A DNA stretch of 64,000 nt, taken from assembly GCF_020217465.1 (NCBI RefSeq), contig NZ_CP084115.1, forward strand, positions 3,038,001-3,102,000. Direction: 5' to 3'. The position numbers and the translations under genes were made by a program. Each line of letters starts with the position of its first letter. The stretch's first letter is position 1. Under the pieces are notes generated by a model. The model was given only the letters and a program-made list of their open reading frames with translations. It was not told where the DNA came from and made no database searches. Positions 37,824 through 47,300 of the stretch are shown in pieces. Source of the DNA: Cobetia amphilecti (lineage in GTDB: Bacteria > Pseudomonadota > Gammaproteobacteria > Pseudomonadales > Halomonadaceae).

Positions 37824-38072
37824 ATGGGAATCATTGCATGGATCATATTCGGTCTTATTGCCGGCATCATCGCCAAGGTGATCGTGCCCGGCAAGGACCC
37901 GGGTGGCATCATCGTCACCAGCATCATCGGCATCCTGGGTGCCGTGGTCGGTGGCTGGGTCGGCACCCTGATGGGCTTCGGTGAAGTGACGGGATTCAAT
38001 CTGGCCAGCTTTGTCATCGCCGTGCTCGGCGCCGTCATTCTGCTGATTCTGTATCGCGTGCTGCGCAAGTAA
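37824..38072 (+). CDS. GlsB/YeaQ/YmgE-family stress membrane protein
   Basis: An 82-residue, very hydrophobic protein with three membrane segments: IIAWIIFGLIAGIIAKVIV, SIIGILGAVVGGWVGTLM and SFVIAVLGAVILLILY. The pattern GLIAG.IAK...PG.DPGG...T...GI.GA..GG is that of the transglycosylase-associated (GlsB/YeaQ) family, commonly induced by general or osmotic stress although its biochemical role is undefined. GGAGCTGCGAC precedes the start. Closed by a terminator. Confidence 0.9.
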   Translation: MGIIAWIIFGLIAGIIAKVIVPGKDPGGIIVTSIIGILGAVVGGWVGTLMGFGEVTGFNLASFVIAVLGAVILLILYRVLRK

Positions 38073-38435
38073 AGCATGTCATGAAGCGCAGTGGCGTCAG
38101 CTGGCCGCAGGCCACATGACGCCAGACAGGACGGCCAGCCGGCACATGCAGGCTGGCCGTCCTGCCTTGCAGGCTTGACGAATCTGGCCCGAGGCGTGCA
38201 TGACTCATGAGTAAAGGCGCCAGGCCGTCACCCACGGGCGCCGCTGAGCGATGCGCGATTCAGGGATTTCACCAAACGACGGCCAGCCGACTTCATCTGA
38301 TATGTGATTTCCAGTCTTGCCACCGGCCCCGCAGGATTGCGCCGGCGGGCTTCCCGAAGATCACCCGCGACACGCTCTGCCCATTGCGGCTCACGAGGCA
38401 GAGTCTGACCGCTTTTGCTGCCACGAGGATTGCCC
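38073..38435. other. Gap between glsB-like gene and phosphorylase gene
   Basis: 363 bp. Apart from the terminator at 38127-38164 nothing gene-like was found; the right part must hold the phosphorylase promoter. Confidence 0.5.
38127..38164 (+). terminator. Terminator after the glsB-like gene
   Basis: Perfect 14-bp arms CAGGACGGCCAGCC (38127-38140) and complement (38151-38164), loop of ten bases, then CCTTGC. Confidence 0.75.
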
Positions 38436-40334
38436 ATGTCCGATACGTCATCTCCCGATCACTCGACATCCACTGCCTCCGATCCTGCGCCGAGCGAGGG
38501 CAGCGCCAGGCCACGCGCCAGAGTCTCTCCCGCCAAACGTCTCTCGCAAGCTGATTTCCAAGCGCATGCCACACGCCTGCTCGCCGAGATCTACCCACAG
38601 CGTCATGAGGAAGTCCTCAGACGCCTGGAGACGGTGCTGGATTTCCATCGCACGCGCCTCACCCCCCGCGTACCGGAAGGCGAGCCGCTCTGGAGCGAGC
38701 GCGACCAGTGGCTGATCACCTACGGCGACAGCCTGCAGCAGGAAGGCGAGGCGCCACTGGCGACCCTGCACGACTTCCTCGCCAGCCGACTGGACGACAG
38801 CCTGTCCGGTGTCCACGTGCTGCCCTTCTTCCCATGGAGCAGCGATGACGGCTTCAGCGTCATCCACTATCGCGAGGTCAATCCGGTCCTCGGCGACTGG
38901 CAGGACATCCGGCGCCTGAGCGAGCAGCGCGACCTGATGGCAGACCTGGTCATCAATCACTGCTCGCGCGAGTCACTGTGGTTCGCCGATTATCTGGCCG
39001 GCGTGCAGCCCGGCCGCGACTACTTCATCGAGATGGACCCCGACACCGATGTCTCCGAGGTCGTGCGCCCGCGCCCGTCTGCCCTGCTCACGCCGGTGCA
39101 TACCCGTCGTGGCCTGCGCCATCTTTGGGCAACCTTCTCCGATGACCAGATCGACCTGAACTTCGCCAATCCCGATGTGCTGCTCGAATTCATCGGCATA
39201 CTGCTTTACTACCTCGAGCAGGGCGCGGGCATCATCCGCCTCGATGCAGTGGCCTTCCTGTGGAAACGCCAGGGCACCTCCTGCATCCACCTGCCGGAGA
39301 CACACGCCGTGGTGCGCCTGCTGCGCGCCATCGTCGACCATCTGGCGCCGGGCAGCCTGCTGATCACCGAGACCAACGTGCCCCACGCCGAGAACATGTC
39401 CTACTTCGGGCTCGATCGTCTGTCACAGCACGACCTCACCGCCATCGAGGGCAGCGCCCAGGCCGATGAAGCGCACCTGATCTATCAGTTCACATTGCCG
39501 CCGCTGACGCTGCACACCCTGACCTCCGGCGATGCCAGCGCCCTGACCCAGTGGGCCACCAGCCTGCCGTCCCTGCCTTCCGGCTGCAGCTACTTCAACT
39601 TCACCGCCAGTCACGACGGTATCGGCGTTCGCGCCCTTGAGGGCCTGCTGCCCGACCACGAGCGCGACACCCTGGTGCGACTGGTGCATGACTTCGGTGG
39701 CTACGTCAGCATGCGCGCCAACCCCGGGCGCGCCGACACCCCCTATGAGCTCAACATCAGCTACTTCGATGCGCTCAAGGGCACGCGGCGCGGCCAGGAC
39801 CCGTGGCAGATCGAGCGCTTCATCGCCAGTCAGACCCTGATGCTGAGCCTGCAGGGCATCCCGGGGCTATACATCCACTCGCTGACCGCGACCCCCAACC
39901 ACCAGGAAGGCGTCGAGCGCGATGGCCATCTGCGCGCCATCAACCGCCGCAAATGGCAGCGCGATGAACTGGAAGCTCTGCTGGCAAGCCCCAACACCGC
40001 GACCCATGAGGTATTCCACGCCCTCAAGCGCCGCATGGCACTGCGCCGCAACGAACCCTGCTTCCACCCGGATGCCGACCAGAATGTCTTCGATGTCGGC
40101 CCGGATTTCTTCGTCTTCGAGCGCGTCACCCATGAAGGGCGCCGCCTGCTGTTCGCCCTCAATGTCACCGATCAGCCGCGCGTGCTGCCGCTGCCGGAAA
40201 GCTGGCAAGGCGTCGCGCTGACCGACCACCTGTGCCATGACAAGACCTACGACCCCACCATGGCTCGCCGTCCCTATCAGGCGGCCTGGCTGATGGAGCA
40301 AGCCGTACGCCCGCCGGCCATCGAGGTCGTCTGA
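38436..40334 (+). CDS. GH13_18 sugar phosphorylase, probably glucosylglycerate phosphorylase
   Basis: A 632-residue cytosolic enzyme of the sucrose-phosphorylase subfamily of GH13. The nucleophile is D270 in IIRLDAVAFLWK, the acid/base E312 in LLITETNVPH, and the transition-state Asp D394 in TASHDGIGVR. VHVLPFFPWSSDDGFSVIHY marks the subfamily. Members split sucrose, sucrose 6'-phosphate, glucosylglycerol or glucosylglycerate with phosphate to give glucose 1-phosphate. Since gpgS and gpgP lie tail-to-tail with it, glucosylglycerate is the likely substrate. GAGGA (38425-38429) supports the ATG at 38436; the N-terminal 60 residues are an extra Ser/Pro-rich segment. Family certain, substrate inferred. 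Confidence 0.88.
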   Translation: MSDTSSPDHSTSTASDPAPSEGSARPRARVSPAKRLSQADFQAHATRLLAEIYPQRHEEVLRRLETVLDFHRTRLTPRVPEGEPLWSERDQWLITYGDSLQQEGEAPLATLHDFLASRLDDSLSGVHVLPFFPWSSDDGFSVIHYREVNPVLGDWQDIRRLSEQRDLMADLVINHCSRESLWFADYLAGVQPGRDYFIEMDPDTDVSEVVRPRPSALLTPVHTRRGLRHLWATFSDDQIDLNFANPDVLLEFIGILLYYLEQGAGIIRLDAVAFLWKRQGTSCIHLPETHAVVRLLRAIVDHLAPGSLLITETNVPHAENMSYFGLDRLSQHDLTAIEGSAQADEAHLIYQFTLPPLTLHTLTSGDASALTQWATSLPSLPSGCSYFNFTASHDGIGVRALEGLLPDHERDTLVRLVHDFGGYVSMRANPGRADTPYELNISYFDALKGTRRGQDPWQIERFIASQTLMLSLQGIPGLYIHSLTATPNHQEGVERDGHLRAINRRKWQRDELEALLASPNTATHEVFHALKRRMALRRNEPCFHPDADQNVFDVGPDFFVFERVTHEGRRLLFALNVTDQPRVLPLPESWQGVALTDHLCHDKTYDPTMARRPYQAAWLMEQAVRPPAIEVV

Positions 40335-40355
40335 CGCCCTCTTTTTCTCCTCCTG

Positions 40356-40398
40356 CCAACGACAACGGGGCTGCCACTGGCAGCCCCGTTGTCGTTGG
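40356..40398. terminator. Shared terminator of phosphorylase and gpgS, with AACGACAA/TTGTCGTT foot
   Basis: Perfect 21-bp arms (40356-40376, 40378-40398) separated by a single C. AACGACAA at 40358-40365 and TTGTCGTT at 40389-40396. Confidence 0.9.
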
Positions 40399-40422
40399 TC
40401 TTGCTGTTTCCCGCCGCGAGCC

Positions 40423-41634
40423 TTACTGGTTGTCCAGCTCCACCGCTTCGTGCATGCGCTCGAGCAGGTCCGGCACGGCTGACTGCACCCGGTTCCAGCT
40501 CGGGATGAAGGGCTTGTCGCGCGGATTGTCGAGGAAGGCGCTGCCGGCATCCATGATGTTGGAGGCGAACAGCTCCACCGCCGCTTCCTCGCTGTGGCGG
40601 TCCACCGTCAGGCCATTCATGACGGCATCGTTGTAGTAGGTCTCGATCAGGTCCAGCGCGATACGGTAGTAGGTGGCCTTGATGGTGCGGAAGGTCTCGC
40701 CGTGCATCTCCACGCCCAGCGTGGCCAGCTTGCGATACATGGCCTTGGCGATGTCCAGACTCATGCGATTCAAGCCGCCCAGCGCATCTTCCTCGGACAG
40801 TGGCTGGTGCTTGTGATCGTAGGCATCGGCGATATCCACCTGACAAAGACGCTTGGTGGAATAGTTGCGGTGGACCTCGGACAGCACGCCGATCTCCAGC
40901 CCCCAGTCACTGGGAATGCGGATGTCCGCCAGCACGTCGGTGCGCATCGAGAACTCGCCGGACAGCGGATAGCGATAGCTGTCGAGATAATCCAGGTACG
41001 GCAGCGGGCCATAGACCTTCTTGAGCGCACGGATCAGCGGCGTGACCATCAGGCGCGCCACGCGGCCGTTCAGCTTGCCCTGGGCGATGCGCGAGTAGTA
41101 GCCCTTGCAGAACTCGTAGTTGAACTGCGGATGGGCCACCGGGTAGATCAGGCGCGCCAGCAGGCCGCGATCATAGGTGACGATATCGCAGTCATGCAGT
41201 GCCACCGCCTCGGCGATGCCCGAGGCCTGCACATAGCCTGAGCAGTACCAGACATTGCGCCCCTTGCCGGCCTCCATCGGCGCCAGGCCATGCTCGGTCA
41301 GCTCCTCATCCAGTGCCCGCAGACGCGGGCCATCGTTCCACAGGATGCGGTGATGCTGCGGCAGATGTGAGAAGAACTCCTTGGCATGCTCGAACTGGTC
41401 ACGGTCGGCGCGGTCCAGCCCGATCACGATCTCGCTGAGGTAGGGCACTTGGGCCAGCTCCTCGACGATATGCTTGAGCGCCGGGCCTTCCAGCTCGGAA
41501 TACAGCGACGGCAGAATCAGGCTCATCGGTCGCTTGCGGGAGAAGCGCATCAGGTCCGCTTCGAGATCTTCCACCGGACGATCGGTCAGGTTATGGAAGT
41601 TGGTGATGATGCCATTCTGGTAAAAATCGCTCAT
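40423..41634 (-). CDS. gpgS: Glucosyl-3-phosphoglycerate synthase
   Basis: Transfers glucose from an NDP-glucose to 3-phosphoglycerate, first step of glucosylglycerate synthesis. The 403-residue protein has a GT-A fold: MSLILPSLYSELEGPALKHI, IVIGLDRADRDQFEHA, GKGRNVWYCSGYV, and the metal-binding region HDCDIVTYDRGLL (in place of the usual DxD), then YRYPLSGEFSMRTDVLADIRIPSDWGLEIGVLSE. This is the GT81-like pattern of GpgS. AAGGAG precedes the start. It follows gpgP by 41 bp. Confidence high given the neighbour phosphatase. Confidence 0.9.
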   Translation of the reverse strand: MSDFYQNGIITNFHNLTDRPVEDLEADLMRFSRKRPMSLILPSLYSELEGPALKHIVEELAQVPYLSEIVIGLDRADRDQFEHAKEFFSHLPQHHRILWNDGPRLRALDEELTEHGLAPMEAGKGRNVWYCSGYVQASGIAEAVALHDCDIVTYDRGLLARLIYPVAHPQFNYEFCKGYYSRIAQGKLNGRVARLMVTPLIRALKKVYGPLPYLDYLDSYRYPLSGEFSMRTDVLADIRIPSDWGLEIGVLSEVHRNYSTKRLCQVDIADAYDHKHQPLSEEDALGGLNRMSLDIAKAMYRKLATLGVEMHGETFRTIKATYYRIALDLIETYYNDAVMNGLTVDRHSEEAAVELFASNIMDAGSAFLDNPRDKPFIPSWNRVQSAVPDLLERMHEAVELDNQ

Positions 41635-41675
41635 GTCAGCTCCTTGTCATGCCGAAGACACGCATCAGGCAGGCG

Positions 41676-42572
41676 TCAGGCGCCCAGACCTCTGGATGTC
41701 CATTCTTCCGGCTGGCCATTGGCCAGCCAGTGACGCAATCCCTCGACCCATCCCTGCGGTCCGGGGAGATTGGCGCGAAAACAGCGGCGCTCATCCGCCA
41801 GTAGCGGATAATCGGCAAGCTCCCGATCACGCTGAGAGGTATTACCGACGCCGGGGATCAGCACAGCGTTGTCGACGGCGGCCAGCAGTGGCAGGTCATT
41901 GGCGCCATCACCGAAGCCCAGCGTCCAGGGACGCACCCGCTCGCAGAGCCGGTAGCGGGCGATCAGATAGCGCGCTGCCACGCCCTTGTCGCTGTCCCCG
42001 GTCACATGGTGAAAGCGCCCACCACGTGTCAGCTTGAGGCCATGGCCGGCCAGACGCATGCGAAAGTCCTCGAGACGCTCCGGCGCGTCGCGCCACACCA
42101 GCGGTTCACTGGCATCACGCTGTCCCGCCAGGGCCGCGTCGCCCTCCCCCAGCCCCGTCAACTCACTGATTCTCGCCACCGACATCGAGGCGAAGCCCTC
42201 GAAGGCGAATTCCTCGCTCAGCGCCGAGAGCACCGCGAGAATCCTGTCGCGGGGCATCGCCACCGCGATACGACACAGGCCGTGTGCGTCCGGGGCGCTG
42301 GCCTCTTCCAGCGGGTAGGCGCTCAGCCAATCGGCCGGCAGCGCCACCACGCCGCCGTTCTCGGCGATCCACGGCTGGCCCGCCAAGCCCAGCGAGTCCA
42401 TCAGCGGTGCCAGTTCGGCCGCCGTCTTGGAGGTGTTGGGGACGACCCAGGCACCGCGCGCGCGCAGGCGGGTCAGCCAGCTGCGCGCCGGCCCCGGCGA
42501 GTAATCGTGGTGATCCAGCAGCGAGCCATCCAGATCGGTCAGCAACAACAGCGGTGCTTGAGTCTCTGACAT
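41676..42572 (-). CDS. gpgP: Glucosyl-3-phosphoglycerate phosphatase (MPGP-type HAD)
   Basis: Removes the phosphate from glucosyl-3-phosphoglycerate to give glucosylglycerate. A 298-residue HAD-IIB enzyme: motif I LLTDLDGSLLDHHDY, motif II in VVPNTSKTAAEL, cap-domain IAENGGVVALP, and motif IV LGFGDGANDLPLLAAVDNAVLI. These match the mannosyl-3-phosphoglycerate phosphatase family, whose members also act on the glucosyl form. Start 42572 chosen for the upstream GGAGAG. A longer frame to 42674 lacks a site. First gene of the gpgP-gpgS pair. Confidence 0.9.
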   Translation of the reverse strand: MSETQAPLLLLTDLDGSLLDHHDYSPGPARSWLTRLRARGAWVVPNTSKTAAELAPLMDSLGLAGQPWIAENGGVVALPADWLSAYPLEEASAPDAHGLCRIAVAMPRDRILAVLSALSEEFAFEGFASMSVARISELTGLGEGDAALAGQRDASEPLVWRDAPERLEDFRMRLAGHGLKLTRGGRFHHVTGDSDKGVAARYLIARYRLCERVRPWTLGFGDGANDLPLLAAVDNAVLIPGVGNTSQRDRELADYPLLADERRCFRANLPGPQGWVEGLRHWLANGQPEEWTSRGLGA

Positions 42573-42876
42573 GTGAACTCTCCTCGTGAAGTGCTGCAGC
42601 GTGTCGGGGGTCACCTCGACAGGATCTCGTGGCACCGGACAGGCATTGCAAGAGCATTGCAGGGAATGTGCCAAGATGGTGCAGCTGCCATGACAGCCTG
42701 ACCCTTCTCACCGTGACTGTGTTTGCGTGCCCGTTCATTTGCACCATAAAAGAGCACAAAGCCTGCCTTGCATGATGCCTCGCCACACGACGAAGCAAAT
42801 CTTTCGTCATCAACGACGACGCCCTCGCATCTGCGAGGGCGTCGAGTCTTGGGCAAGCGGGCAACGTCTATTGAGC
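42573..42876. other. Gap upstream of gpgP with the TRAP operon terminator
   Basis: About 300 bp, AT-richer toward 42680-42810. It should hold the gpgP promoter, possibly osmoregulated; no clear boxes were seen. The terminator is listed separately. Confidence 0.5.
42817..42844 (-). terminator. Terminator of the TRAP transporter operon
   Basis: Perfect 13-bp arms (42817-42829, 42832-42844) with a 2-base loop. On the minus strand the stem is followed by TCGTTGATG; the foot is a variant of the TTGTCGTT motif rather than a T run. Confidence 0.7.
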
Positions 42877-44178
42877 CTAGACCAGCCACAGCGACAGTTG
42901 CGGCCACAGCAGCAACATCGCCAGCACGCACAGCTGGATGGCGATGAACGGCAGCAGCGAGACGAAGATATCCTTGAGACTGATGCCTTCCGGTGCCACG
43001 CCTTTCAGATAGAAGGCGGCAGGCCCGAAGGGTGGCGACAGGAAGGACACCTGCATGTTGACCGCGAACAGCACACCGAACCATACCGGGTCGTAGCCGA
43101 GCTGAACGATGATCGGCACGAAGATCGGCAGGGTCAGCATCGCGATGCCGATCCAGTCGAGGAACAGCCCCAGCAGCAGCAGGATCGCCATCATCACCAT
43201 GATGATCGCCAGCGGCGGGATATCCAGGCCGAGAATCATGCTCGACACGAAGCGGTTGCCGCCCATCAGGTTGTAGACCCCGACCAGTGCCGCCGCGCCG
43301 ATACCGATCCAGATGATCATGCCGCAGGTGTTCATGGTCTGGGACAGCGCACGCTGCATCAGGGTGATGGAGAACTCGCCGCGCAGCATCACCGCCACCA
43401 GCACGCCGAAGCTGCCCATCGCCGCGGCTTCGGTCACCGAGGCCACGCCACCGTAGATGGAGCCCAGCACCAGCCCCGCGATGACTGCCGGCACGCCGAT
43501 GGCCTTGAGCAGCTCACGCTTGCTCTGGAAGCTGGCGCGGCGCTCCTCCTCGGGCATCACCGGCCCCAGCGAAGGGTTGCGCAGACAGCGGATCAGCACG
43601 TAGATGATGTAGCTTGCCATCAGCACGATGGCCGGGGTGATCGCCGCGGTGAACAGGTCCGCGATCGACTGGTTGGCGATCAGGCCATAGATGATCAGCA
43701 CGATGGAGGGCGGCATCATGGTGCCCAGCGAGCCGCCGGCACACACCACGCCGATGGCGATGTGCTTGTCGTAGCCGAGTCTGAGCATCTGCGGCAGCGC
43801 CAGAATCCCAAGCAGCACGATCTCGCCGCCGATGATGCCGGACATCGCGGCGAGGAAGAACGCCACCACGATGGTCTGGATCGCCACGCCGCCGGGCAGG
43901 CGCCCCGCCATCACGCGCATGGCATTGAACAGGTCCTTGGCGATGCCTGAGCGATCGAGCAGCGAGGCCATCAACACGAACATCGGCACCGCCACCAGCG
44001 AATACTCGGTGACGAAGCCATAGACACGACTGGTGACCAGCGGCAGCGCCATCGGTCCGAACCAGCCGAAGGTGTAGGCCAGCGCGACCAGGCCGGTGAC
44101 GAAGGCCAGCGGCAGGCCGGTGACCAGCAGCGCGAAGATGCCGCCGACCAGCAGCATCGTAGCCGTTGCGATATCCAT
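42877..44178 (-). CDS. dctM: TRAP transporter large permease (DctM)
   Basis: The 433-residue large membrane subunit of a tripartite ATP-independent periplasmic transporter, with about 12 hydrophobic segments. Characteristic stretches are LVAVPMFVLMASLLDRSGIAKDLFNAM, GIIGGEIVLLGILALPQML and GVVCAGGSLGTMMPPSIVLIIYG. It couples sodium gradient to uptake of a carboxylate-type solute. Its ATG overlaps the dctQ stop as ATGA. Substrate not deducible. Confidence 0.94.
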   Translation of the reverse strand: MDIATATMLLVGGIFALLVTGLPLAFVTGLVALAYTFGWFGPMALPLVTSRVYGFVTEYSLVAVPMFVLMASLLDRSGIAKDLFNAMRVMAGRLPGGVAIQTIVVAFFLAAMSGIIGGEIVLLGILALPQMLRLGYDKHIAIGVVCAGGSLGTMMPPSIVLIIYGLIANQSIADLFTAAITPAIVLMASYIIYVLIRCLRNPSLGPVMPEEERRASFQSKRELLKAIGVPAVIAGLVLGSIYGGVASVTEAAAMGSFGVLVAVMLRGEFSITLMQRALSQTMNTCGMIIWIGIGAAALVGVYNLMGGNRFVSSMILGLDIPPLAIIMVMMAILLLLGLFLDWIGIAMLTLPIFVPIIVQLGYDPVWFGVLFAVNMQVSFLSPPFGPAAFYLKGVAPEGISLKDIFVSLLPFIAIQLCVLAMLLLWPQLSLWLV

Positions 44179-44834
44179 CAGCGCGGCTCCTTGTGGTCAA
44201 CTGTGGCGTCGGGAGCGTCATCGGGAGTGGCGTCGGATGCGCCACTTCCCTCACTGCCACCCTCGGGCGGGCGGGGCGAGAAGAAGGTCTGGTAGAGATG
44301 CCACAGCGCCTGCAGGGTCATCACCGCCAGCGCGAACAGGATCACGCCCTTGGTCAGCGCCGGAAACGGCGGATTCCATGAGGTACCGGATCGCTCCAGC
44401 TGCCACTCGCCCAGCGGACTGTGCGAGGCACGCCAGAACATCACCCAGCCCGCATAGCTCATCGCCAGACAGAAGACGAACGTCATCACGTCATTGAAAC
44501 AGTCCAGCACGTAGCGAAAGCGCGTGCCGACCAGGTCGTAGAGCACACGCACGCGAATATGGCGATTGTTGGCCAGGGCTGCCGGGCCGCCCAGCGCGAA
44601 GCTGGTCGCGACCAGGAAGATCACCGTCTCGTGCACCCAGGAGGTCGGCGAATCGAGGCCGTAGCGCATCACCACCTCGAACACGCTGATCGCCATCGCC
44701 AGCAATACCAGCCACGCCGCGGCGCGCGTGCCCTTGCCCACCAGGCGGTCCAGCGGCGTCCGCGTGCCCAGATTCGGGTCGTGGTCATCCGACGCCTCGG
44801 GTAGCCCCGGCGACGCCACATCATGTTCTGCCAT
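44178..44834 (-). CDS. dctQ: TRAP transporter small permease (DctQ)
   Basis: The small membrane subunit, 218 residues with four membrane segments (AAWLVLLAMAISVFEVVMRY, WVHETVIFLVATSFALGG, CFNDVMTFVFCLAMSYAGWV, LFALAVMTLQALWHLYQTFF). The MRYGLDSPTSWVHE stretch is typical of the family. The ATG at 44834 has AAGGAA upstream; the longer frame to 44939 is unlikely. C-terminal 30 residues are acidic and hydrophilic. Translationally coupled to dctM. Confidence 0.92.
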   Translation of the reverse strand: MAEHDVASPGLPEASDDHDPNLGTRTPLDRLVGKGTRAAAWLVLLAMAISVFEVVMRYGLDSPTSWVHETVIFLVATSFALGGPAALANNRHIRVRVLYDLVGTRFRYVLDCFNDVMTFVFCLAMSYAGWVMFWRASHSPLGEWQLERSGTSWNPPFPALTKGVILFALAVMTLQALWHLYQTFFSPRPPEGGSEGSGASDATPDDAPDATVDHKEPR

Positions 44835-44972
44835 ATCGAATTCCTTGCTGACTCGCTGCCTCAAGGAGAATCGGCGCGCCCAGTGAGCACGCCGACCTTG
44901 ATCTCCCGCGTCTTTATCGTTCTGCGATCGTGTCGCCAAAAGCGTGGTTAGCTGATGCCTCTTGCCACACGG

Positions 44973-45001
44973 CGGCTGGCGCCCATCCCGCGCGCCAGCC
45001 G
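44973..45001 (-). other. Hairpin between dctP and dctQ
   Basis: CGGCTGGCGC (44973-44982) pairs with 44992-45001, starting 3 bases after the dctP stop. Such a hairpin would let dctP accumulate above the permease genes, as expected for a binding protein. Confidence 0.6.
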
Positions 45002-45003
45002 GC

Positions 45004-46086
45004 TCACATCAGGTTGCGGTCGGTCAGGAAGCTGACCACGGACTCGTAGACCTTGCCGGTCAGCTCATTCTTCTCGGCCCACACCTTCCACTCCTGCTGC
45101 GCGATGCGACGGAACTTGGCGCGCTCCTCCGGCGCCATGTCGATCACCTCGATATCCGGATTGGCACGCGCCGCGCTCACCGCCTTGATGTCACGCGCCT
45201 TGAGGGTGAAGACCATGTCGTAGGCCATCGCGTCGGTGGCGGTCTCCATGATCGCCTTGAGATCCGCCGGCAGGCCGTCCCAGATGCCCTTGTTCATCGA
45301 CACCGCCACCATCGGCAAGGAGTGGAAGCCCGGATAGGACGGGTACTTGGCGAAGCTGTGCAGCCCCTGGTCATCATTGGTGGCGAAGACGGTGTAATCC
45401 GCCGCGTCGATCACGCCCTTCTCCAGACCGGTGTAGACCTCGGAGCCCGGCAGGTTGACGGGCGCCGCGCCGGCCTTCTGGAAGATGTTGTAGACCATGC
45501 CTTCCGGAGCACGCACCTTGAGGCCCTTGAGGTCATCGACGGTGCGTACCGGCTTCTTGGAGACAAAGGACTCAAGCCCGGTGGCGCCCGCGCCGATCAG
45601 GTGCACGCCGTAGGGCTCGACCAGCTCGTTGTAGAGCTCCTCACCGCCGCCGTGCTGCATGTACTCGAGATATTCCAGCGGGTCACCCCAGGCACCCACC
45701 AGGTTGCCCAGCATGCCGAAGGCCGGATTCTGGCCCGAGAAGTAGGACGGATCGGTCAGATGGCCCTGCAGGATGCCGGCGCTGACGGCGTCCAGCGTCT
45801 GGTTGGCCTGCACCACGGCATTGACCGGCAGGATCTCGATGGCGATACGGCCATCCGACATGGTCTTGATGCTGTCGGCCCAGGCCTTCTTGACCTCGAA
45901 CTGCGGCTCCCCGGCCGTCTCGGAGGTCTGGAAGGTCCATTCATACTCGGCGGCCCAGCTCGGTGTGGCGATCAGCGTGGCGGCCACGGCGGTGGACAGA
46001 GCCAGCGCCTTGAGCGTGACACGGGCGGGAGCGGCAGTGGTGCGCGGCGAGGTAGTGGTGAGCGACGAGATAGTGGAACGCGGCAT
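45004..46086 (-). CDS. dctP: TRAP transporter solute-binding protein (DctP)
   Basis: The periplasmic solute receptor, 360 residues with a signal peptide ending in ATPSWAAEYEW. The DctP fold shows GLESFVSKKPVRTVDDLKGLKVRAPEG, containing the conserved Arg that usually ligates the substrate carboxylate, and EVYTGLEKGVIDAADYTVFA. Related receptors bind C4-dicarboxylates, keto acids or lactate; sequence alone does not decide. First structural gene after the GntR regulator, 92 bp away. Confidence 0.93.
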   Translation of the reverse strand: MPRSTISSLTTTSPRTTAAPARVTLKALALSTAVAATLIATPSWAAEYEWTFQTSETAGEPQFEVKKAWADSIKTMSDGRIAIEILPVNAVVQANQTLDAVSAGILQGHLTDPSYFSGQNPAFGMLGNLVGAWGDPLEYLEYMQHGGGEELYNELVEPYGVHLIGAGATGLESFVSKKPVRTVDDLKGLKVRAPEGMVYNIFQKAGAAPVNLPGSEVYTGLEKGVIDAADYTVFATNDDQGLHSFAKYPSYPGFHSLPMVAVSMNKGIWDGLPADLKAIMETATDAMAYDMVFTLKARDIKAVSAARANPDIEVIDMAPEERAKFRRIAQQEWKVWAEKNELTGKVYESVVSFLTDRNLM

Positions 46087-46178
46087 GGTGAAACTCCTGG
46101 CTTGTTGTTATGACGTTCTAGGGTCAGTGGAAGACGTGCTGGCACTTCCCGGCGTGGCGAAACGCCGCGAGGTGACGT

Positions 46179-47078
46179 TCACTCGCTTGATAGCGGTGCA
46201 GACAGGCTGGGCAGCTGGCCGAAGCGGCGCAGCAGCTCCAGCGGTTCCTGGGCGCGCCCGGCAGGATGGCTGCTTTCAGAAGCCGCAGGCATGGCAAGCC
46301 CGAGGTCCTGACCAGTGCGGTCCAGCACATGCAGGGTCGCGGCGTGGGCGGCATCGGGCTGGCGCAGACGAATCGCCTCCATCACCGCACGATGACGGCC
46401 GAGGCTGTCACCCAGCTCCGAGGCATTGTGATTGGAAGTCGCCACCAGCAGGCTGATCGACGGCTTGAGCACATGGCCAAGCTGCGCCCAGATGACGTTG
46501 TGGGTCGCGGCGAAGATGGCGTCGTGGAAGGCGATATCGGCGCGGTCGAACTCCTCCATGGCGCTGCCGCCATGCACCGCTGCGGCCATGCCGTCGTAGG
46601 CCTGCTCGATGGCGGACAGGTCCTGGGCGGTGGCCTCGGTGGCTGCCAGAGCGGCGACGAAGGGTTCGATGGAGATACGGAAGGCGTAGATGTCCCGCGC
46701 CAGCTGCGGATGCGGCATCGCGTAGCGCGTCATCCAGCCGGTCACGCGCGGATCGAGCAGATGCCACTCGCTGAGCGGATTGACGCGGGTGCCCTGGCCG
46801 GTGGTGCGGGTGAGAATCCCGGCATTGACCAGGCTCTGGATCGCGGTGCGCACGGTGGCGCGGCTCTGGGCGTGCTGATCACACAGGTCCAGCTCACGAG
46901 GAATCAGGCTGCCCGGCGGGTAGCGATTCTCGAAGATGGCCTGCGCCAGCCATTCGGCGACATCGACACGCGCGGTCGAGGTGTCTCCAGCTGAGGCAGA
47001 CGCTGTGGATACGGGCGTTGAAGAAGAGGCATTGGTGCGCGGGCTGCCGCCAGCGGCACTCGTGGGAGGCGTGGTCAT
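46179..47078 (-). CDS. GntR-family regulator (FadR/FCD type)
   Basis: A 300-residue-class repressor. An Ala/Ser/Thr-rich N-terminal 40 residues precede the winged helix (AQAIFENRYPPGSLIPRELDLCDQHAQSRATVRTA written here in two halves, with the recognition helix around SRATVRTAIQSLV). The FCD ligand domain has FRISIEPFVAALAA, DIAFHDAIFAATHN and HRAVMEAIRLRQ with metal-binding His residues. Start 47078 (MTTPPTSAAGG) has AAGGAA upstream. Adjacent and co-directional with dctPQM, so it likely senses the transported acid. Confidence 0.88.
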   Translation of the reverse strand: MTTPPTSAAGGSPRTNASSSTPVSTASASAGDTSTARVDVAEWLAQAIFENRYPPGSLIPRELDLCDQHAQSRATVRTAIQSLVNAGILTRTTGQGTRVNPLSEWHLLDPRVTGWMTRYAMPHPQLARDIYAFRISIEPFVAALAATEATAQDLSAIEQAYDGMAAAVHGGSAMEEFDRADIAFHDAIFAATHNVIWAQLGHVLKPSISLLVATSNHNASELGDSLGRHRAVMEAIRLRQPDAAHAATLHVLDRTGQDLGLAMPAASESSHPAGRAQEPLELLRRFGQLPSLSAPLSSE

Positions 47079-47300
47079 GATCGAACGTTCCTTGATGGCG
47101 TGGCGCGTCATTTGTAGCTCGCGCACATCCTTCATGGGATGCATCGCGGCGCGCTCTTGTCCGTCAAGGAATAGCCCATGTCAGACATGCCAACAAGACA
47201 CCCTAGACCAAGGGTGGGACCCGACTTTGGTCACACCTTTACGCAAATCCCTGTTGCGAAAGGGCTATTCAGGTACTGGCAATTCCCCCGTGTGCTGGCG

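Follow-up and report, generated by a model that had tools for sequence, protein, structure and literature searches.

The convergent genes ggaP, gpgS and gpgP lie within a 64,000-nucleotide stretch of Cobetia amphilecti DNA (contig NZ_CP084115.1, positions 3,038,001 to 3,102,000; hereafter the window, whose own numbering is used below), and very likely constitute the known gene set for metabolism of glucosylglycerate, ggaP encoding its phosphorylase. The ggaP gene (38436..40334, plus strand) begins with ATG and encodes a 632-amino acid protein of family GH13_18, very probably a glucosylglycerate phosphorylase (GGaP, EC 2.4.1.352). On the minus strand, gpgP (41676..42572) encodes a putative HAD-IIB glucosyl-3-phosphoglycerate phosphatase (298 amino acids, counted from the ATG at 42572) and is located 41 bp upstream of gpgS (40423..41634), which encodes a predicted glucosyl-3-phosphoglycerate synthase (403 amino acids). 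These two genes are read in the same direction and converge with ggaP, the gap between ggaP and gpgS being 88 bp. An earlier note on the window had reported these three genes at these positions, as the open reading frames (ORFs) confirm.

The synthase matches the NCBIfam model NF040724 over nearly its full length (residues 3-401, 358 bits, E 7e-107), below the strict cut-off of 700 bits, and the second model of the same activity, NF010496, at 68 bits (cut-off 262). Its six matches in the Protein Data Bank (PDB), of which four carry the name glucosyl-3-phosphoglycerate synthase and two are uncharacterized proteins, are weak throughout (E 2e-5 to 4e-4). With a TIGR01486 score of 216 bits (above the cut-off of 165), GpgP falls into the mannosyl-3-phosphoglycerate phosphatase family; it contains the HAD motifs DLDGS and GDGAND, and has 1xvi as its closest solved relative.

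Signature residues and phylogenetic position of the phosphorylase

Pfam recognizes only the GH13 catalytic domain of the ggaP product (Alpha-amylase, 62 bits). Residues D270, E312 and D394, which we take to be the catalytic residues of GH13, align with an Asp, a Glu and an Asp that do not vary among the sucrose and glucosylglycerol phosphorylase references, in agreement with the earlier note, which had described them as intact. According to the review by Franceus and Desmet, GGaP sequences are marked by (T/S)ETN at the acid/base on beta-strand 5, and by a Glu that replaces Gln in loop A (PMC7178133). Both marks are present in the window phosphorylase, which contains T311-E312-T313-N314 and a loop A of sequence RADTPYELN (P436-Y437-E438), where E438 stands opposite a Gln in all seven references. 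TETN together with the loop-A Glu was found in all 138 readable rows on the GGaP side (the window protein and Escherichia coli YcjM included) and in none of the seven references, a contrast that reports clade membership rather than tested function, as the relatives were chosen by similarity to the window protein. A total of 140 GGaP-side rows had been extracted, two of which (L034 and L035, 7 amino acids each) were left out; the references comprise five proteins with sucrose phosphorylase as their annotation or deposited name, a glucosylglycerol phosphorylase, and a protein whose deposit names only an Aamy domain. The same TETN/PYELN pair has served to call a GGaP in Rhodoalgimonas, in a Roseobacteraceae genome (PMC10608839).

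A maximum-likelihood tree (IQ-TREE, 40 rows) separates 33 GGaP-side rows, including the window protein and YcjM, from the seven references with branch support of 100/100. The window protein is thus set apart from the sucrose phosphorylase clade, a firm place within which the earlier note had named as fatal to its guess of glucosylglycerate as substrate. YcjM, annotated as glucosylglycerate phosphorylase, is 41% identical to the window protein over 581 aligned positions; it shares TETN, the loop-A Glu and the side of the tree, and differs in a shorter N-terminus and in its surroundings, the ycjM-W cluster, where no gpgS is annotated within the 20 kb shown, while the window copy is convergent with gpgS and gpgP. 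The closest named loci (58-65% identity) are from Halomonas, Modicisalibacter, Litchfieldella, Salinicola, Kushneria and Vreelandella, all Halomonadaceae where the tree gives names. The Cobetia genome itself (a single contig of 4.16 Mb) contains one close phosphorylase match, in addition to five that are weak and partial (20-41 bits).

It is highly improbable that the GH13_18 enzyme is simply a neighbor of gpgS and gpgP and acts instead as a phosphorylase on sucrose, on sucrose 6F-phosphate or on glucosylglycerol. The best NCBIfam match is indeed sucrose_gtfA (TIGR03852), and the best PDB matches listed are sucrose phosphorylases, glucosylglycerol phosphorylases and one unnamed Aamy-domain protein; however, the sucrose_gtfA score of 177 bits falls well short of the cut-off of 334, and the tree, the residue contrasts and the co-occurrence with GpgS described below all oppose such an identity. 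Published loop-A motifs are N(L/V)D(I/L/V)YQ for sucrose phosphorylase, GFDVHQ and KXXYYQ for sucrose 6F-phosphate phosphorylase, and VGAIYQ for glucosylglycerol phosphorylase (PMC7178133), none of which occurs in loop A of the window protein. We therefore rejected sucrose phosphorylase on the missing motif, the score and the tree, and glucosylglycerol phosphorylase on the missing VGAIYQ and the position of 7xdr on the opposite side of the tree; sucrose 6F-phosphate phosphorylase, with no sequence of its kind in the trees, was rejected on the loop-A motifs alone.

Co-occurrence with GpgS and the substrate assignment

In order to survey co-occurrence, as the earlier note had proposed, GpgS and the GGaP clade were sought in 151 genomes of the family, taken from a larger group, and in 274 genomes of the class. 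The family sample includes 102 genomes with both genes, one with GGaP only, three with GpgS only and 45 with neither (GGaP in 103, GpgS in 105); the corresponding numbers in the class are 37, 4, 1 and 232 (GGaP clade in 41, GpgS in 38). Fisher p values, uncorrected for kinship, are 1e-33 and 4e-40, respectively. Class carriers of GGaP comprise 40 genomes with matches of at least 652 bits and a fragment in G188; eight of the 49 matching class genomes were left out, as they contain only matches of 206-219 bits in ORFs of 653-671 amino acids, judged to represent another GH13 group. The family genomes with a single gene include G138, where GGaP is split over two frames; G005, where GpgS is a fragment; and G083 and G097, which have GpgS alone. 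In G083 a 118-amino acid ORF that groups with GGaP is convergent to gpgS (L054), and looks like a ggaP remnant. GpgP was found in 111 of the 151 family genomes; read by eye, six (G020, G038, G062, G090, G091 and G144) have a GpgP-type phosphatase with no GpgS or GGaP match, which may do another job.

Genomes with GpgS therefore nearly always also encode GGaP (102 of 105 in the family, 37 of 38 in the class), which puts numbers on a point left open in the review literature, and suggests that in these samples the pathway seldom ends at glucosylglycerate.

Among 80 named loci (which may overlap in organisms with the unnamed survey genomes, so that row counts are not species counts), seven, from Balneolota and Kiritimatiellales/Spartobacteria, have near GGaP just a weak match to the window GpgS (60-65 bits). 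At L096 (Balneolota) and L098 (Kiritimatiellales), the GGaP neighbor is the other type of GpgS, matching NF010496 at 392 and 394 bits (cut-off 262), and the presence of two distinct synthase types beside one phosphorylase clade strengthens the substrate assignment. The GGaP neighborhood of L096 (L096:7744-10784) also contains an M20-type hydrolase and a HAD hydrolase that could replace GpgP, and that of L098 (L098:876-5845) an M20-type hydrolase and two GT4-like transferases, one weakly resembling mannosylglucosylglycerate synthase (216 bits, cut-off 640).

An association of GGaP with GpgS and GpgP is already published: GGaP was discovered through it, its specificity having been derived from neighbors encoding glycerate kinase, GpgS or GpgP (PMC7178133), and the same grouping is known from many other bacteria. 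The known GGaPs of GH13_18 are those of E. coli (YcjM, the one compared here), Meiothermus (Allomeiothermus) silvanus and Spirochaeta thermophila, with gpgS and gpgP as frequent neighbors (PMC7178133). Synechococcus sp. PCC 7002 encodes the same three activities as the window under consecutive locus numbers (gpgS-ggaP-gpgP, A2021-A2023), and in Marinobacter 198 of 250 genomes combine homologs of all three genes (PMC10873239). A further GH13_18 phosphorylase adjoining the maker of a glucosyl osmolyte, as in the window, is the Marinobacter glucosylglycerol phosphorylase beside its synthase (PMC10873239), which differs in its substrate and in its loop-A motif, VGAIYQ (PMC7178133). Four other papers name glucosylglycerate once each, PMC10960403 and PMC12492958 in the reference list and PMC6104435 and PMC5507952 in the introduction. 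The window locus is thus a further clear example of an established module.

Several observations weigh against the assignment of the locus to glucosylglycerate. YcjM is the sole characterized GGaP in the 40-row tree, where it sits on a long branch and its exact place within the GGaP side is unsure; the trees contain neither the Meiothermus and Spirochaeta GGaPs nor the Xylanimonas enzyme active on sucrose, nor a sucrose 6F-phosphate phosphorylase. None of the 60 PDB matches listed, out of 111, is named glucosylglycerate phosphorylase, and GpgS was not matched at threshold in 4 of the 41 class genomes carrying the GGaP clade. Judged by family models alone, the product might also be the mannosyl analog, the synthase scoring under both GpgS cut-offs and the phosphatase, which may accept the mannosyl form as well, being of the mannosyl-3-phosphoglycerate phosphatase family. 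Nevertheless, the signature residues, the tree position and the co-occurrence with GpgS together argue for glucosylglycerate, rather than sucrose or glucosylglycerol, as the probable substrate, in support of what the earlier note had guessed.

Layout of the locus and its relatives

Among the 102 family genomes with both genes, ggaP and gpgS converge within 50 kb of each other on the same contig in 94, are on separate contigs in six, and lie more than 1.3 Mb apart in two. The 94 convergent gaps range from 8 to 21,494 bp (median 3,570), 22 being at most 200 bp and 65 exceeding 2 kb; in the family, direction is inherited and closeness is not. In the class, both genes are found in 37 genomes: 16 have them convergent, 16 co-directional in the order gpgS>ggaP (38-96 bp between hits), four on separate contigs, and one far apart. 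The 80 named loci include 37 convergent, 17 co-directional and 3 divergent arrangements, 7 with the weakly matching synthase, and 16 without GpgS in the available stretch. The convergent or co-directional state, followed over 81 labelled rows of a 124-row FastTree tree, requires at least five changes.

The Leisingera methylohalidivorans plasmid NC_023146 (L037, 29109-32872) harbors the same convergent trio, ggaP against gpgS-gpgP, with 40 bp between hits; unlike the window, it is alphaproteobacterial, typed as conjugative, and carries the trio next to a urease cluster. Two cyanobacterial loci, L106 and L134, differ from the window in that gpgP follows ggaP in the same direction (the hits overlap by 8 bp or lie 34 bp apart) and gpgS is divergent. 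The stretch between ggaP and gpgS, read in 15 family relatives (16 stretches), contains mixed genes, by look for transport and redox functions; the idea that it holds extra pathway genes was dropped, the intervening genes being mixed and the window gap merely 88 bp.

The earlier note proposed that the convergent genes are oppositely regulated, with synthesis at high salt and phosphorolysis upon a drop in salt, a model that we consider unlikely. Convergence of all 94 family pairs located on one contig within 50 kb is in its favor, as are reports that dark-tolerant Prochlorococcus cells lower transcripts for synthesis and raise those for glucosylglycerate recycling (PMC11631117), so that opposite control is possible in principle, there tied to carbon supply. 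However, tail-to-tail order is one layout among several and thus gives no basis for inferring opposite control: gpgS and ggaP run in one direction, closely spaced, in as many class genomes as are convergent, most family gaps exceed 2 kb, ggaP of L106 and L134 goes with gpgP and away from gpgS, and layout has changed repeatedly over the labelled rows. The interval 38000-43000 yielded no sigma-70-like promoter by which the two sides could be compared, and the salinity at which the solute is found in another halomonad, discussed below, runs counter to the proposed timing.

Most of the 88-bp gap is occupied by a hairpin (40355..40399), with a stem of 21 pairs on the plus strand (z = -6.8) and 20 on the minus strand (z = -6.3), whose core, GGCTGCCA-N-TGGCAGCC, is kept in six of six aligned sequences (the window and five members of the genus). 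A T-rich tail, TCTTGCTGTT, was detected for the plus strand only, where the element is terminator-like despite the weakness of the tail. A single terminator shared by both transcription units, as put forward in the earlier note, is thus partly supported, by the hairpin and by its tail on the plus strand; a terminator working in both directions is plausible, although no T-rich tail was reported for the minus strand.

An 82-amino acid ORF (37824-38072) for a small membrane protein, GlsB/YmgE-like by look, precedes ggaP on its strand. Upstream of gpgP, on its strand, are what look like the three genes of a TRAP-type transporter and a GntR-like regulator (42877-47144).

Solute turnover and its timing

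Judged by the families to which the enzymes belong, GpgS would transfer glucose from a nucleotide sugar onto 3-phosphoglycerate, GpgP would remove the phosphate to yield glucosylglycerate, an anionic compatible solute, and GGaP would use phosphate to cleave glucosylglycerate, releasing glucose 1-phosphate and D-glycerate. The former would re-enter metabolism directly, and the latter via a glycerate kinase of the garK type, whose gene is at another place in the genome. The genome contains one such kinase (PF02595, 459 bits, at 2,807,982-2,809,106), and no match to the PF13660 type. Since this sole glycerate kinase found for the second product is ~267 kb from ggaP, the locus is hardly the self-contained module described in the earlier note. 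Searches with E. coli GarK and GlxK, which covered the window too, identified a relative in 4 of 139 GGaP loci (L092, L108, L145 and L150), a lower bound, given that 57 of the 139 have just ~1.5 kb or less of flank.

Operation of the phosphorylase in the making direction, as a second route to glucosylglycerate from glucose 1-phosphate and D-glycerate that needs no nucleotide sugar, is improbable. Co-directional layouts with gpgS in relatives would suit such a synthesis helper, and the reaction is reversible, with a low GGaP KM for D-glycerate (1-5 mM; PMC11009771). The available glycerate kinase can drain D-glycerate, however. Phosphate in cells is normally far above glucose 1-phosphate and free D-glycerate, an excess that favors breakdown.

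Assuming breakdown by GGaP, we think that the phosphorylase controls the size of the solute pool and salvages its carbon once the solute is unwanted, whether upon replacement by ectoine or upon carbon demand, rather than in response to a salt downshift. In Chromohalobacter salexigens, another member of the Halomonadaceae, glucosylglycerate is reported as a minor solute that occurs when salinity is low or in a mutant deficient in ectoine, and that was undetected when salinity was high (PMC3308980). Recovery when salt falls, the direction favored by the earlier note, is therefore the less likely one, to the extent that a different species can speak for Cobetia; if the C. salexigens pattern is valid here, breakdown would be expected as ectoine takes over with rising salt. 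A literature search on Cobetia and glucosylglycerate gave no paper, and no solute data were found for the window's own organism; its genome does encode ectoine synthase. In a speculative reading of rather low probability, glucosylglycerate would be, across the family, a low-salinity solute that yields to ectoine, with the phosphorylase acting upon a salt upshift, opposite to the earlier note's model, to provide carbon for the high-salt solute; gene direction might then be free to change, control being metabolic rather than exerted through antisense transcription or opposite promoters.

The 2020 review proposes that GGaP might regulate the level of the solute, and describes its role in living cells as unconfirmed (PMC7178133). 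With one match per gene and an ectoine synthase, the organism of the window would offer a simple place for testing that role.

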